DNA of 64,000 nucleotides from Phycisphaerae bacterium. GTDB lineage: Bacteria; Planctomycetota; Phycisphaerae; UBA1845. The DNA lies in the NCBI GenBank assembly GCA_029260075.1, contig JAJDDY010000087.1, forward strand, positions 1-64,000. The letters are read 5' to 3'. The position numbers and the translations under genes are program-made. The notes beneath the pieces were generated by a model. It searched no databases, was not told the origin of the DNA, and saw only the letters and a program-made list of their open reading frames with translations. Each line of letters opens with the position of its first letter. Position 1 is the stretch's first letter. This document shows positions 17,075 through 26,982 of the stretch, one piece after another.

Positions 17075-19102
17075 TCAACTGCTGGGTTGAGGCACGGGGC
17101 CACCACCGAAATCAGGATCGGGCTCAGCGTCCATGGAAACCGGGCGGGCGGTGCCCACTTGGTCGGTGGCGGCGGCGGCGTCGAGCAAGTCGGAAACGGA
17201 CGGTCTGTTCAGCTCTTCACCACGAATCAACGCATTGACCTCTTCACCGGAAATGGTTTCAAACTTCATCAGCGCCTGGGCGATCACCTCGGTCTTGTCG
17301 CGATTGTCCAGAATGGTTTGTCTTGCAGCTTCGTAGGCGGTATCGACAATCAACTTAATCTCGGCGTCAATCGTTTCCGCGGTGCTGTCGGAATAGTCTC
17401 GGGGGCCCATGTCGATAAACCCGCTCTGGTTGTCGTTGTCGCCGTAGTAGACGAACCCGACCTTGTCGCCCATGCCCCACTCACGGACCATGGATCGCGC
17501 GACCTCCGTAGCCTGCTTGATGTCGGATGAAGCCCCGGTGCTGATGTCACCAAAAAAGATGTCCTCGGCAATCCGACCGCCGAACATCACGCGCATTGTC
17601 GCCAAAAGATAGCTTCGCGTATGCACCATGCGATCGCGCTCGGGCAGGGAGAACGTGGCCCCGCCCGCGTTGCCACGGGGGATGATACTGACCTTATGTA
17701 TCGGGTCAGCATCTTTTTCCAATGCCTGAATCAGCGCATGACCGGCCTCGTGGTAGGCTGTGATCTTGCGGTCCCGCTCATCGACCACGCGACTCTTCTT
17801 CGCGCGACCCCAGCGAATCTTGTCGCGCGCTTCGTCCAAGTCTTCCTGTTCCACAACGTCTTTATTGTTCAGCGTAGCCACCAACGCGGACTCATTGACC
17901 ATCGCGGCAAGCTCAGCACCGGTGAACATCGGCGTACCCCGAGCGCAGCGCCGCACGTCGACGTTGGGACCGAGCTTGATCTTGTGCATGTGTACTTTGA
18001 GTATTTCGTACCGCCCTTGTAGGTCCGGCATGGAAACGAACACCTGACGGTCGAAACGACCGGGGCGAATCAGCGCCGGGTCGAGCACGTCCGCCCGGTT
18101 GGTCGCCGCGACCACGATGACCTGAGAGTTCGTATCGAACCCGTCCATTTCGACGAGAATGGCGTTCAACGTTTGCTCGCGTTCGTCGTGCCCGCCACCG
18201 CCGAAATTGGCGCCGCGCTTCCGGCCAACCGCATCAATTTCATCCAAGAAAATGATGCAGGGGGAGTTTTCTTTAGCTTGCTTGAACAGATCGCGCACGC
18301 GCGACGCCCCCACGCCGACAAACATTTCCACGAAGTCCGAACCGCTAATTGAAAAGAACGGCACATCCGCCTCACCGGCGATGGCCTTGGCGAGCAGGGT
18401 CTTGCCGCATCCAGGCACACCGACCAGAAGCACACCGCGAGGGATTCGTCCGCCCAGTCGCTGGAACTTCTTGGGCGACTTCAGGAATTCGATGATCTCG
18501 TGGACTTCTTCCTTGGCTTCATCGATTCCCGCCACGTCGGCAAACGTCACGTTAGTATGCTCTTTGGGCGTCACGCGGTGGCGCGAACGTCCGAAGCTTC
18601 CGAGCATGCCGCCCGGTCCGCTAGCGCTTCGAATCTGCCGGAAGATGAAGAACCAGACAATCGCAAACAGAAACAGGTAGGGCAGCAGGCTCAGGAAAAC
18701 GAGCATGAATTGATTCGGGCGTTCCGAGCGAACCTCAGCTTCAGGAAGCGCCTCGACCATGCGATCGATGAATTTGCTGTCGATCGCCTCACGAGGGAAC
18801 ATCACCAGGAAACGCTGCGACGTATCGGGTCCGATTGCCTCCGGCTTGACAAACCCTTCGACCGTGCCGTCCTCGCGCAGCACGAGGCTCTGGATTTCCT
18901 GTTTGTCCACGAGTTGGTAGAACGAACTGATCGAAAGGGTCGTCGGCGCCACAAGCGAGTTGTTCAGCACACCCACCAGAATCATCGCGAGCGCGAGAAG
19001 GATGAGCCCGCTCACGACGTTGCGGGACATCTTCACGTTCGGTCCGTTCGGCCGCTTGGGGTCAGGCGTTGGTTTCGGCGGTGTCTCGTGGCCATCTGTC
19101 AT
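17075..19102 (-). CDS. ftsH: ATP-dependent zinc metalloprotease FtsH
   Basis: This 675-residue membrane protease degrades misassembled membrane proteins and short-lived regulators. Helices lie at about 28-48 and 133-155, flanking a small extracytoplasmic domain. The AAA+ domain has Walker A GVPGCGKT (228-235), Walker B IIFLDEID (283-290), a pore loop with FVGVG and the second region of homology [19 protein letters not shown]. The peptidase domain has the zinc site HEAGH at 451-455. All catalytic elements are intact and length is normal. It lies 160 bases downstream of the bamD/lptE-like pair on the same strand. No strong ribosome-binding site is seen before the ATG. Confidence 0.97.
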
Positions 19103-19262
19103 GGGTTATGGTCTCTACTTCGTCTCACAGTACGCAAGGCCAACGGAACGGTCAGGCGACATCGCCCACTACTATTCTAGCACACTACCGAAGAAATCCA
19201 TCTATTTAGCACCGCACCGGCCAACATCCCGTCGAAAACGGGGTCTACAGCACATCTGCCAC

Positions 19263-19805
19263 CTAGTCCACCGGCTGCCCTTGCGTTGACCAGTCGGATT
19301 CCATCGATTCAACAATCTGCTCCGCCATCCCGTCGAGCGCCCGGACCATGCCCGTCGCGAAGGTCTCGCCGACCGGTGGGATGTAGCTCGTCTGGTACAC
19401 GAAACGCGGACGGTCGATCAACACGGTGCCGGATCGGAGATCCTGAACACGAAACCGCACCGCGACGGTGCTCCCGATTTCGCGCGGACGATCGGTATTG
19501 AACTCGTCACCGAACGTCTGATTCCGGACCGAGAGAATCTCGCCCGTCAGGACCGCGTCGGCTGAAGCCCGCGGCGCGATGCGATAGGGCGTGTCCATCT
19601 CGATCCGCTTAACGATCGATTCGGTCAGTCGAAACTCCAACTCGCGTCGAAACTCGCGAGATTGAAGGATTTCCACGTGCATCGTTTGAATATCGGTCGG
19701 AAACGGGCGGGCGGTCGAATAGCCACATCCGGTAACACACGGAACAATCAGCACTACGGCCAGACAAACGCTTGACCATTTGCGGTTGGCAACCATCAAG
19801 TTCAT
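19263..19805 (-). CDS. LptE-like outer-membrane lipoprotein
   Basis: This 180-residue lipoprotein has a signal peptide ending in the lipobox VTGC (Cys27), directly followed by GYS, which is typical of LptE-family proteins. The rest is a small alpha/beta fold with the LptE-like stretch FRRELEFRLTESIVKRIE. LptE plugs the LptD barrel to deliver lipopolysaccharide to the outer leaflet, so its presence points to a diderm envelope. Its ATG overlaps the stop of the BamD-like gene (ATGA at 19802-19805), so the two are coupled. Homology is called by pattern and context, not by search. Confidence 0.75.
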   Translation of the reverse strand: MNLMVANRKWSSVCLAVVLIVPCVTGCGYSTARPFPTDIQTMHVEILQSREFRRELEFRLTESIVKRIEMDTPYRIAPRASADAVLTGEILSVRNQTFGDEFNTDRPREIGSTVAVRFRVQDLRSGTVLIDRPRFVYQTSYIPPVGETFATGMVRALDGMAEQIVESMESDWSTQGQPVD

Positions 19806-20896
19806 CTCCCGTTTCCCTTGACGCTCGACCGGTCGGGCGACGCGGCGTTCGGCTCATTGGCCGGCGCGCCCAACATGTCCAATCGCGCAGACGCCTTGGC
19901 CGCCGCGATCGTTTCCGGCCAATTCCTGACCACCGAACGGTAGTACATTACGGCCGAACTCAAGTGTTCCGTTCGCTCGTAGTATCGGGCCACGGCGAAT
20001 TCCTTTTCTGCTCGCTTCGCGCGGATGTCTTCGAGAATGAGCGGGATGCGTTCGCTTTTCGCTTGCGCTGGATACTGACGGCTGTAGTCGTCGAATCGCT
20101 CCTCCGCCTCAATCAGCGCAGCCTCGTCGTACTCGATACCACCGAAGCTAGCCAAGGCGGCGTCAGCCGATCGGCGCAGCGCGAACTGGTGATAACGACT
20201 TCGAGGATACTCTCGGATCAACCGGCCATACTCCATCTCAGCCAAAGCATGATCGCCCGCATCAAACATGCGATCGGCCTTGGTCTTGATCGCCAATTCT
20301 GCCAACCCGGCTTCGGGATGATCCGTTGAGATTTCATCCAAAATCGTGAAACCAAGATCCTTCCCGGACAACAAACGCACGCCCCAGATCTTGCGCTTCA
20401 CGCCAGCCAGGAAGTTCTCCGCGATCACAAACTCCAGACGCAACGCCTCCTGCGTCAGCGACATGCCGCTGTACGCACCGAGAAACTCCTGCAACACGAC
20501 GTGCGCTTTTTGATAGTCGCGCCGCCCGATGAGCGCCTTCGCTTTGGCGATCAACATGTTCGGATGAAACTCGTGATCACCGCCGTACTTCTTCATGTAC
20601 TTCTTAATGGCCGACAAGGCGCGCCGATGATCGCCGTTCTTGATCTGCACCTCGATCGCGTGAAGGTCACCCTCGGCCGTTCCCACCGGTGCGGGCGGCG
20701 ACTCGGTCCACGTCTTGCCGTCATACTTCAGCGTGCGAATGCGCTGCTCTTGACCGACGGCCATGGAATCACACGCAAACGCCGTAGCGACAACAGCTAC
20801 GAACATCCACAGATGGGTACGTCGCGCAAACGAACGTGATCGACCGCAGTCGGCCAAGACACGTCCAGCCGAAGGCCTAGCTGTCAGTTGTCTCAT
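19802..20896 (-). CDS. BamD-like outer-membrane assembly TPR protein
   Basis: This 364-residue exported protein has a hydrophobic segment (about 28-45) followed by TPR-like helix pairs (about 75-345). Features such as AIKKYMKKYGGDHEF, LIREYPRSRYHQFALRRSADA and FDDYSRQYPAQAKSE match the BamD/YfiO pattern, in which repeats end in YP. BamD is part of the machine inserting barrels into the outer membrane. The usual lipobox is not clear (TAFAC is a poor match), so anchoring may differ. GGTGG lies 6 bases before the ATG. It is translationally coupled to the LptE-like gene, consistent with a shared envelope-biogenesis job. Confidence 0.72.
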   Translation of the reverse strand: MRQLTARPSAGRVLADCGRSRSFARRTHLWMFVAVVATAFACDSMAVGQEQRIRTLKYDGKTWTESPPAPVGTAEGDLHAIEVQIKNGDHRRALSAIKKYMKKYGGDHEFHPNMLIAKAKALIGRRDYQKAHVVLQEFLGAYSGMSLTQEALRLEFVIAENFLAGVKRKIWGVRLLSGKDLGFTILDEISTDHPEAGLAELAIKTKADRMFDAGDHALAEMEYGRLIREYPRSRYHQFALRRSADAALASFGGIEYDEAALIEAEERFDDYSRQYPAQAKSERIPLILEDIRAKRAEKEFAVARYYERTEHLSSAVMYYRSVVRNWPETIAAAKASARLDMLGAPANEPNAASPDRSSVKGNGR

Positions 20897-22236: not shown

Positions 22237-22369
22237 CCTAACGCGACGCCGCAGGTTTCGCTGACCGCCACGATCTGCCTATTTCAGACGATATGATCGG
22301 ACGTCGATAGACGTGTTAGACGCAACCGGTGCGCACGCTACGAAATAGCGCCGCCGAGAGGAATCAGCC

Positions 22370-23758
22370 ATGCAACGGACGCTAACAACACACTTGCGCA
22401 AGAGGTCGGTACGCGGCGCATACCATGCGCGGATGGGCATCGTCGCGTTGGTGCTGATCGTTGGCTCAACCGGCTGTCGGCGCGGTACTGAACCGAACCA
22501 AGTGACTCAAGGTGACACCGCGTCGAACGCTCGTCCTAACTTCATCGTGATTTCGCTGGACACGCTCGGGGCGAATCGACTGGGGTGCTACGGCTATGAA
22601 CGCGCCACGACGCCGGCGATGGATCGGTTCGCAGATCGTGGCGTTCGGTTCGCTGCGACGTTCACGCAAAGTACGTGGACAGCTCCGGCGCACATGTCGC
22701 TCTTCACCGGTCTCTACCCGACGACGCACGGCGTGACGGCGCCGGGAACTTTCGTATCCCGCACCATCGCAACGTTTCCGGAGTTGTTTCAAGAGCACGG
22801 CTATCGATCGTTTGCCTACATGGGCGGTTCGCCGCTTAGCAAGTACGCCGGATTCGCGCGGGGTTTTGAACGCTTCTGCTTCACCGGCACCAACGGACTC
22901 GAACTCGCCGTCGACATGGCCGAGGAGCAAATCGAAGAACTCGGCGATCAAGAACCGTACCTGATCTTCCTCCACGGTTTCGATCTACAAGCACCCTACG
23001 AAACACCCGGTCGGTACGCCACAATGTTTCAATCACCGGGCGCGGAACCGTTCGACCGAACGACCCGGCGGGAGATGGAAGGCGGCGACGTCCCGGACGA
23101 CATGACGCCCGGTCACTTGCGGTATCTTTCGGACGTATACGACGGCGCCATCCGTCGCGCCGATGGACTGCTCGATTCGTTCTTCAACTTCCTCGAACAA
23201 CGCGACGAGCTTGAGCACACGTTCGTCGTTCTGCTTGCAGTCAACGGTGAATCGTTCGGAGCGAATGGCCGGCTGGGACACCTGGGACGGTTGGACCGGG
23301 AATGCCTGCACGTGCCGCTTCTGTTGGCCGGTCCGGGTGTCGATCGCGGCGTCATCAACACAAACGTCGGACTCGTCGATTTGTTCCCGACGCTTCTCGA
23401 ACTGGCCGGCATATCGCGACCGTCTGTTCATGGTCGCTCGTTGGCGACCACGCTTCATGGTGGTGGGTTGTTGGCCCGCCCGGTCTTCAGCGAAATCGAC
23501 TTCGGCGGTCACTATAGAAGTCTGATCTCCGGCGACTGGCAACTGCTCGTACGAGCCTATGACGACACGCCGCAACTCTTCGACGTCCAACGAATTGCCC
23601 CGGAACGAACGAACGTCGCGGCGGACAACTCTAGTGTCGCCGCCGAGTTGCTTGCGCTGATGCCCAACCCGCCCACGGACATCTTGGATCATGACGTGTT
23701 CGGTAATGCACCAACGCCACAGCAAGAGAGTCTTAGCAGTGCCTACACACAACCATAG
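22370..23758 (+). CDS. Sulfatase-like lipoprotein, probably catalytically inactive
   Basis: This 462-residue protein of the alkaline phosphatase/sulfatase superfamily has a lipoprotein signal ending at Cys36 (GSTGC). It has the fold landmarks ISLDTLGANRLGCYGY and TWTAPAHMSLFTGLYP. The formylglycine CxPxR motif is replaced by Thr104-x-Pro-x-His108, as in other Thr-nucleophile relatives. The conserved metal-binding SDHGEEFGEHG of its neighbour is AVNGESFGANG here: Asp-His become Val291-Asn292. The RAD Asp is Asn69. Only Asp64 of the expected ligands remains, so hydrolysis is unlikely. AGGA sits 7 bases before the ATG. It is a tandem paralogue of the gene at 23919 and may serve as a binding or regulatory pseudoenzyme. 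Confidence 0.85.
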   Translation: MQRTLTTHLRKRSVRGAYHARMGIVALVLIVGSTGCRRGTEPNQVTQGDTASNARPNFIVISLDTLGANRLGCYGYERATTPAMDRFADRGVRFAATFTQSTWTAPAHMSLFTGLYPTTHGVTAPGTFVSRTIATFPELFQEHGYRSFAYMGGSPLSKYAGFARGFERFCFTGTNGLELAVDMAEEQIEELGDQEPYLIFLHGFDLQAPYETPGRYATMFQSPGAEPFDRTTRREMEGGDVPDDMTPGHLRYLSDVYDGAIRRADGLLDSFFNFLEQRDELEHTFVVLLAVNGESFGANGRLGHLGRLDRECLHVPLLLAGPGVDRGVINTNVGLVDLFPTLLELAGISRPSVHGRSLATTLHGGGLLARPVFSEIDFGGHYRSLISGDWQLLVRAYDDTPQLFDVQRIAPERTNVAADNSSVAAELLALMPNPPTDILDHDVFGNAPTPQQESLSSAYTQP

Positions 23759-23918
23759 CATTCCTAAGGCAAGACCGACGCCGCATAGCGATTCCGCCCC
23801 GCCGGCGACGATGGATAGACGTGTGGCCGCCCAACACGACCGGCCTGCGATCCTTCGTTCCGACCGAAGGCGCGAGCAGGCCGGTAGTCGATGTATCCGT
23901 CCTCGAATCGTCAAACCA

Positions 23919-25286
23919 ATGCGCAGTTTGCGAATCATCCCGCTGTTTGTTTTTGCTGCCACGGCGCTGGCACTCGCGCCGGGCGGTTGCCGTTCCGACA
24001 AGACCGAACCTACATCCGCCGCAAACCAACAGTCCGGTCGATGGAACGTCATCCTCATATCGCTCGATACGCTCCGCGCCGACCGACTCAGCTGCTACGG
24101 TTACGCCCGTAGCACGAGCCCATCCATCGACGCATTCGCGAGTCGGGGCGTTCGCTTTGCCAACGTAGTGTCGGAGACCAGTTGGACGCTGCCGTCGCAC
24201 ATGACCATGTTTACCGGGCTCTATCCAACAACGCACGGCGTCACGGCGCCGGGGATGGTCTTGACGCGAAACGTCACGACGCTGGCTGAGCGATTCAAAC
24301 AGCACGCCTACCGAACGTTCGCCTATACTGGCGGCGGGTTCGTCGATCGAAAGTTCGGGTTCGATCGCGGGTTCGAGGAATACCACGGTAACGGTCTGAA
24401 CGGACTCAAGGGCGCGCTGGAAATGGCGCAGCATCAGATCGAATCGTTCGATGAAGACGAACGGCACTTCATTTTCCTACACGCATTCGACATCCACGCC
24501 CCCTACACCGACGAAGAACCGTACGCGACCATGTTCCAATCGCCCGATGCCGAGTCGCCAAGCGATGCTGGTTGGAACTTCGGTACCACACTTCGCCACG
24601 CCGTCGAACTTAAGGAGGAGGGACGGCGCCTGTCTCCGGGAAACATTCGATATCTCTCCGATCGATACGACGGCGGCATTCGCCGGGCTGACGACCTCGT
24701 TGGGCGATTCCTCGACTTCCTGAAGCGTCGCGGAGCGTTCGAGAACACGATCATCGCGATAGTTTCCGACCACGGCGAGGAATTCGGTGAACACGGTTGG
24801 GTGGGTCACACCGGCACGATGTTTCCCGAATGTTTGCACCCGCCAATGATCATCTTTACTCCTGAAGGCCAACCGGCTGTGGTGTCAACGGGCGTCGGAC
24901 TTATGGATCTCGCGCCAACTTTGCTCGATCTCGCGGGCGTACCAACCATTCCATGCCAAGGGCGATCGCTCGTCGGGCTGATGCGCGGCGAGACCGTGAC
25001 ACCCAAACCCCTGCTCAGTGAAATCGACTACACCGCACACTACCGCAGCGTTATTTGGAACGGTTGGCAGCTAATCCGCAGACCCTATGCGGACACGCCT
25101 CGCCTGTTTCACCTCGAAGCCGACCCCACGGCGCAAACCGACTTGGCCAAGGCGCATCCACAAAAGGTGCTGGCGATGCTCGAAGTCATGCCTGACCCGC
25201 CGGTCGGCACTGACGCGCTGAAGACCGTCTACAACCTCGACGTAGACCTGCTCCGCTCGCTCGGGTATATCGGTTCCACCGATTGA
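23919..25286 (+). CDS. Sulfatase-like lipoprotein hydrolase (Thr-nucleophile type)
   Basis: This 455-residue lipoprotein has its lipobox at APGGC (Cys24). It is a sulfatase-superfamily hydrolase with ISLDTLRADRLSCYGY (Asp50, Asp55), SWTLPSHMTMFTGLYP with Thr90 in the nucleophile position, and an intact metal site IVSDHGEEFGEHG (Asp284, His285). Because Cys/Ser is absent at the nucleophile, formylglycine is not expected. By analogy with LtaS and phosphonate-ester hydrolases, Thr may attack a phosphate or sulfate ester. The ATG at 23919 gives a perfect lipoprotein signal; the longer frame from 23691 overlaps the previous gene and adds a basic stretch. No clear ribosome-binding site precedes it. 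It is a tandem duplicate of the preceding gene. Confidence 0.85.
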   Translation: MRSLRIIPLFVFAATALALAPGGCRSDKTEPTSAANQQSGRWNVILISLDTLRADRLSCYGYARSTSPSIDAFASRGVRFANVVSETSWTLPSHMTMFTGLYPTTHGVTAPGMVLTRNVTTLAERFKQHAYRTFAYTGGGFVDRKFGFDRGFEEYHGNGLNGLKGALEMAQHQIESFDEDERHFIFLHAFDIHAPYTDEEPYATMFQSPDAESPSDAGWNFGTTLRHAVELKEEGRRLSPGNIRYLSDRYDGGIRRADDLVGRFLDFLKRRGAFENTIIAIVSDHGEEFGEHGWVGHTGTMFPECLHPPMIIFTPEGQPAVVSTGVGLMDLAPTLLDLAGVPTIPCQGRSLVGLMRGETVTPKPLLSEIDYTAHYRSVIWNGWQLIRRPYADTPRLFHLEADPTAQTDLAKAHPQKVLAMLEVMPDPPVGTDALKTVYNLDVDLLRSLGYIGSTD

Positions 25287-25548: not shown

Positions 25549-26982
25549 GTGAACAAGATCGAACCAAGATTGAACACCTGCCGAGTCTTCGTGCGTCCCC
25601 GATCGCTCCGTGCCGCCATGGTGACTGCTATCGCGTGCGGCCACGCTGGGGCGCTCCCAACTTCGGGCGACGAGCCGGCCATCGTCGTGGCCATCGGCGC
25701 CTACTTCTCGACGGATGATCCCGACGAACGCGAAACCCTGGTTCGAAGAATTGAGCAAGACCCAGAGTACGATCGCACGAAAGTTTCCGAGTGGCTTCAT
25801 GCTGCGTCGAAGTTCGACCCGATCAAGCGCAGCACGTTGGTGATGCGCATTCCGATCGGGCACAAGAAGCTCCGTACGGTCCGGCTTCGACTGCCGAAGG
25901 GTTATGACGCGGGTCGTGCGTGGCCGCTGCTCATGGTCTACCACGGTAGCGGCGGCAGCGCCAAAAACTTCCTGCGGTTCGTCGAGCGACTGCTCGGTCC
26001 GCGCGTGGATGAGTTCATCATCGCGGCGCCGCACGACTACCGGAACACGATCGTCGATCTTCCCGGTCCGCCGTCGGCCGAACACCCCATGGTGTGGCGT
26101 GCCATCAAGAAAAGGGTTCACGTCGACAGCGACCGCATGTACGCCCTCGGGTATTCACTCGGCGGCTACGCCACCTGGACCTACGCGACGCTATACGCCG
26201 ACCGCTTTGCCGGTGCCATTGCTTTGGCATGTACTTACAGCTTTCCCTCGGAGGGACAGCTTTGGGAGGCCATGTTGCCCAATCTCAACCACGTCCCGAT
26301 CCTGCACGTATGGGGCGACCAAGACCCGCTACCCTGCCCGGGATTCGGCGGTCGTCGCGCACGCATGACGATTTCACAATTGAATCGGCGATTCACGGCG
26401 CTACTGCCCAAGATCGACGCCGACGTTACAAGTCGCATGCTCCCGGGGATCGCCCATAACGGGGTAGTTCCGCCGCCGGATCAACTCCAGCGAATACTCG
26501 CGAAGCGCAGGGTTCGAAGTCCCAAGCGTGTCGAGCACACCTTTCGCAATCTTCACCAAGGTCAAGCGTATTGGCTGGAGGCAGAAACGTGGCTCGGCGA
26601 CAAGTGGGACGAAGCGTTCCATCAACACGTCAATGACGAACTGAACGCTGATGACGATTCTGACGACGCGGTTATGCAACAGGTCGTGGAACGCATGGGC
26701 CACCTCGCCGGATCACTGAAAGGGCAATCCATTTCGGTTCAGCGCCGGCACGTCGGCGACCTCGTCGTCTGGTTTTCGAATGAGATGATCGACTGGACAA
26801 AGCCCATCAAAGTCGTGGTTGACGACGCCAACGTCTTCGAGGGCCGAATCATGCCAAGCCTGCACGTATGCCTCGAACAGGCTGGGCGCTCGTCGGACTT
26901 CGAGCGCCTGCGGTGGGCCGGCCTGCGCGTCAACCAGGACGGGCGGGTACAATTTATTACATACACCAATCCCTCACCGTAA
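25549..26982 (+). CDS. Alpha/beta-hydrolase (esterase/depolymerase-like)
   Basis: This 477-residue protein has a central alpha/beta-hydrolase domain (about 105-320). The nucleophile elbow is GYSLGGY with Ser203. The acid is probably Asp257 or Asp259 in WGDQDP, and His303 in GIAHNG completes the triad. The oxyanion segment is VYHGSGGSAKNF. This pattern fits PHB-depolymerase/feruloyl-esterase-like families that cleave ester bonds. An N-terminal hydrophobic stretch (about 20-40) is a weak signal peptide, so export is possible. The C-terminal 150 residues have no recognised motif. The start is GTG with GGGAGGGG 8 bases upstream. Confidence 0.85.
   Translation: MNKIEPRLNTCRVFVRPRSLRAAMVTAIACGHAGALPTSGDEPAIVVAIGAYFSTDDPDERETLVRRIEQDPEYDRTKVSEWLHAASKFDPIKRSTLVMRIPIGHKKLRTVRLRLPKGYDAGRAWPLLMVYHGSGGSAKNFLRFVERLLGPRVDEFIIAAPHDYRNTIVDLPGPPSAEHPMVWRAIKKRVHVDSDRMYALGYSLGGYATWTYATLYADRFAGAIALACTYSFPSEGQLWEAMLPNLNHVPILHVWGDQDPLPCPGFGGRRARMTISQLNRRFTALLPKIDADVTSRMLPGIAHNGVVPPPDQLQRILAKRRVRSPKRVEHTFRNLHQGQAYWLEAETWLGDKWDEAFHQHVNDELNADDDSDDAVMQQVVERMGHLAGSLKGQSISVQRRHVGDLVVWFSNEMIDWTKPIKVVVDDANVFEGRIMPSLHVCLEQAGRSSDFERLRWAGLRVNQDGRVQFITYTNPSP

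Follow-up and report, generated by a model that had tools for sequence, protein, structure and literature searches.

SpAS1, SpAS2 and the phosphonate monoester hydrolases (4upi, 4upl, 2vqr, 2w8s) share the sulfatase fold of the alkaline phosphatase superfamily and use a formylglycine derived from Cys. In LtaS, EptA and YejM the nucleophile is a Thr (PMC7576196), and according to SulfAtlas Thr occupies the formylglycine position in 30 of 59 PF00884 seed proteins (PMC5066984). SulfAtlas also notes putatively inactive planctomycete and lentisphaeral sulfatases, in which the catalytic Arg is lost (PMC5066984). YejM (PbgA/LapC) offers a precedent, being an envelope protein of the sulfatase fold whose site is altered and which has a regulatory role. 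Here we describe two adjacent genes of this fold in the window, the whole 64,000-nucleotide stretch of Phycisphaerae DNA that was analysed. An earlier note, made from the letters of the DNA, had read them as tandem sulfatase-like lipoproteins, one of them an apparent pseudoenzyme.

Two sulfatase-fold genes in tandem

The following features were assigned at the locus:

22355..22369, + strand: SD-like GAGG before the P0001 start, read by eye
22370..23758, + strand: P0001, 462 aa, sulfatase-fold protein with a degenerate active site and an N-terminal signal bearing a lipobox-like STGC, probable pseudoenzyme (profile, alignment, model, motif check)
23919..25286, + strand: P0002, 455 aa, intact Thr-type sulfatase-fold protein with an N-terminal signal (profile, motif table, model)

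The listed ORF of P0002 (23691-25286) begins within the P0001 gene; a signal peptide is obtained from the ATG at 23919, which is therefore the likely start. The two genes are same-strand paralogues as described before, with 47% identity over the aligned part, and are mutual best matches within their own genome. A profile search found full-length PF00884 matches in both (P0001 129.2 bits, P0002 144.4 bits, cut-off 25 bits).

The claim that both copies keep the same fold was borne out by PF00884 matching end to end and by structure matches at Z about 44.7. AlphaFold2 models had a mean pLDDT of 83.7 for P0001 and 85.1 for P0002, with core blocks above 90. The top structure match of both models was 4upl (SpAS2), with Z 44.6, rmsd 2.7 and 369 aligned for P0001 and Z 44.8, rmsd 3.0 and 370 aligned for P0002. 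Hits whose Z differs by no more than one unit count as ties, and both models had the twin's own alignment as input; the match therefore demonstrates a common fold and not activity.

A lipobox had been ascribed to both copies as well, but only P0001 matches the PROSITE-like pattern (IVGSTG followed by C). The N-terminus of P0002 (LAPGG followed by C) fails it because of the Pro at -3. Among the close relatives, L016 matches the pattern and L033 has no Cys there. Judging from their N-terminal hydrophobic segments, both proteins look exported, but the case for a lipid anchor on both is insecure.

Just upstream of the pair, on the minus strand, genes for FtsH, an LptE-like lipoprotein (PF04390) and a BamD/YfiO-like TPR protein are grouped (17075-20896). 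A link to these genes by analogy with YejM-LapB-FtsH was rejected since it is not conserved around the homologues: the one in G031 adjoins DXS, polyprenyl synthase, adenylate kinase and PPIase genes, the one in L033 peptidase and transporter genes. Directly downstream, on the plus strand, lies an esterase-like alpha/beta hydrolase gene with weak PHA depolymerase-like matches (25549-26982). A role in anti-phage defence was dismissed, there being no PADLOC match.

Thr as the nucleophile

The Thr of P0002 had been regarded as a departure from the Cys or Ser of formylglycine enzymes. This reading does not hold: Thr is the usual nucleophile here, and its column is invariant in 27-row alignments and in a motif table of 66 domains. 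Both proteins carry it, P0001 as T104. The motif C/S-x-P-x-R of type I sulfatases (SulfAtlas S1) is not present in the pair, WTAPAH and WTLPSH standing in its place. Since Thr is the rule in this branch and also the nucleophile of LtaS, EptA and YejM, P0002 is a normal Thr-type member. Searches against the named families of LtaS, EptA and YejM stayed below the curated NCBIfam cut-offs, for example with 33 vs 500 bits for the pEtN transferase domain model. For P0002, the Thr chemistry suggests transfer or hydrolysis of phospho- rather than sulfo-esters. In PF00884 proteins, a Thr at the formylglycine position thus marks the Thr-nucleophile type and should not be taken as a lesion.

The formylglycine motif CxP[SA][RH] is absent from all 13 PF00884 proteins of the genome. 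Despite this, the same genome has ten FGE-sulfatase (PF03781) matches on contigs C58, C16 and C7, several of them within one 2508-residue frame.

Loss of active-site residues in P0001

As the earlier note had stated, the metal site of P0002 is intact, with the Asp-His pair D284-H285 in place; the further site residues are D50, T90, H94, H193 and H297. Asp50, His193, Asp284 and His285 align to the motifs of 4upi, and by its residues P0002 looks intact. Opposite the Asp-His pair P0001 has V291-N292, and opposite D55, the Asp of the RAD motif, it has N69; both had been read exactly. Further losses had been missed, namely R67 to Gly, the His of HxPY to Q207, E298 to Ala and H299 to Asn. In total, P0001 has lost seven of 13 active-site positions picked from the motifs of AtsA, LtaS and phosphonate monoester hydrolases (G67, N69, Q207, V291, N292, A298, N299), and it retains D64, T104, H108, E294 and H304. 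No intact replacement ligands for a metal are visible elsewhere in the aligned P0001 sequence.

In the other rows, 29 columns reach a conservation of at least 90%; P0001 deviates at seven of them and P0002 at two. Five of the seven P0001 deviations fall on active-site positions. Among all other aligned homologues, only L056 from Binatota has a disrupted Asp-His pair. This distant homologue (ORF from 5101) has GHG for DHG and RSPP for HxPY and is a second possible pseudo-sulfatase. L075 was considered as a second dead sulfatase of the own genome and rejected, as it is LtaS-like and retains GDH.

These losses could alternatively reflect an enzyme of altered chemistry, working with a different metal or none through Asp64, Thr104, His108, Asn292 and His304. 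In line with this, P0001 retains the Thr of the nucleophile position, the N-terminal Asp and the histidines of PxH and GH. Asn292 alone is unremarkable, because formylglycine sulfatases use Asn at the second ligand position in 61% of cases, with His and Gln as the usual alternatives (PMC5066984), and activity has been reported for YejM, in which Arg451 takes the place of LtaS His476 (PMC7576196). However, Val291 replaces an Asp whose conservation is 99% among formylglycine sulfatases (PMC5066984) and 98% among the rows aligned here, and the His of HxPY, R67 and the GEH motif have gone along with it. We therefore consider an altered enzyme quite unlikely, the least probable of the readings weighed here. 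P0001 combines lost catalytic residues with a kept fold and frame, as a pseudoenzyme does; very probably it is a folded protein that has no catalytic activity.

Decay or constraint

We also assessed whether P0001 is merely a duplicate on its way out, which has lost catalysis and is under relaxed constraint while its frame is still unbroken. Partial relaxation would give a longer branch, and that of P0001 is about 2.5 times that of P0002 (0.87 vs 0.35). P0001 occurs in one genome only, and some conserved positions beyond the active site have changed as well (F198L, D409I). Against this, the frame is open, with no stop and no frameshift, GC by codon position resembles that of the neighbouring genes, the SD-like GAGG still precedes the gene, and the fold model is confident. 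In a codon model, a shared omega of 0.09 gave lnL -5457.4 compared with -5491.1 when omega was set to 1 on the P0001 branch, which is 33.7 log units worse, omega being a whole-branch average at saturated synonymous sites. Pairwise dN/dS was discarded since synonymous sites are saturated.

When neutral change was simulated until seven of the 13 active-site residues had changed, less than 1% of runs were still free of stops and the frame was broken in >99% (indels ignored; active-site codons assumed to change at the neutral rate). If these codons had changed faster by selection, function would be implied. The proposed dN/dS and decay check on the first copy found neither frame damage nor a neutral signature in the one genome that carries it. 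Simple decay is unlikely, given the intact frame and codon usage, the confident fold, the rejection of omega = 1 and the stops arising in the neutral simulation. We regard the dying duplicate as an improbable explanation, though less so than an enzyme of altered chemistry.

Homologues and their distribution

Close homologues turned up only as single genes with intact sites, one in G031 (L016) and one in G089, both of which belong to a single sister genus within the family. G089 and L033 (Planctomycetota CSMAG_2921) are apparently one genome. The pair and its close homologues form a clade with 100/100 support. Within it, a grouping of P0001 with P0002 is compatible with the data (p-AU 0.104); support for the alternative order is only 52/15. 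The pair was found in no other genome among 114 of the order and a sample of 397 of the class, nor by a contig scan; only single intact homologues were recovered. As no other searched genome holds P0001, we infer selection after the loss rather than observe it.

Each of the three lineages has a different gene neighbourhood, and no conserved neighbours point to a pathway. Loci with two or more sulfatase-like genes are common in related genomes (L024, L046, L047, L048, L052, L059), so tandem duplication itself is ordinary. Two fused sulfatase-like domains are present in L025 and L038; the second domains are divergent, that of L038 having PAF for PSH. They were considered as natural active/dead pairs and set aside, since Asp-His is kept in both domains.

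A possible role for the probable pseudoenzyme

This distribution bears on the idea that P0001 is a stand-alone ligand-binding or scaffold protein unrelated to P0002, as close homologues occur singly in other genomes and the pair lacks co-conservation. Adjacency and 47% identity favour a common ligand or partner instead, and we give the stand-alone protein about the same low probability as the dying duplicate.

We rather favour, with moderate confidence, that P0001 is a lineage-restricted pseudoenzyme that was duplicated within the Thr-nucleophile branch and kept, presumably, because it partners P0002 in binding or regulation. Duplication within this branch of the sulfatase fold would have given rise to P0001. 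Its sequence shows that the fold, Asp64, Thr104 and His108 are kept and that one half of the metal site (Asp-His), the His of HxPY and neighbouring charged pocket residues are lost. With no Asp at 291 and no His at 207 it would be unable to hold a metal and activate Thr104, and hence would not turn over substrate. P0002 would be active as an exported enzyme that hydrolyses or transfers phospho- or sulfo-esters. In the weakest step of the proposal, P0001 would be kept because it binds the ligand of P0002, or because the two pair up outside the cytoplasm and P0001 tunes or tethers its twin.

A heterodimer of P0001 and P0002 is conceivable because the closest solved structures, SpAS2 and SpAS1, are described as dimeric, which is a hint only. 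In such a complex outside the cytoplasm the dead subunit might, through Asp64, Thr104 and His108, capture substrate or allosterically control its twin. This specific arrangement is a tentative suggestion, rather doubtful as it stands, to which we give slightly more weight than to the stand-alone protein.

Comparison with known systems

SpAS1, SpAS2 and the phosphonate monoester hydrolases have the fold of the pair and are its best structure and sequence matches. They differ in using formylglycine from Cys where the pair has Thr, and P0001 in addition lacks the Asp-His pair. LtaS, EptA/MCR and YejM resemble the pair in their Thr nucleophile and exported domain, and P0002 in their Asp/His metal site. 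Unlike them, the pair has no multi-span membrane domain, its NCBIfam scores lie far under the cut-offs, and its homologues have no link to FtsH around them. The putatively inactive sulfatases of SulfAtlas are like P0001 in that an essential active-site residue is lost from a sulfatase-fold protein. There it is the Arg of a formylglycine site, whereas P0001 is of the Thr type, has lost the metal Asp-His and the His of HxPY and lies beside an intact twin. In the literature searched we found no direct precedent for a described sulfatase-fold pseudoenzyme pair. Tandem duplicates of an enzyme and a pseudoenzyme are a known kind; a gene pair of this sort is uncommon, though not unprecedented. Dead paralogues retained beside live ones are natural tests of the non-catalytic roles of an enzyme fold.
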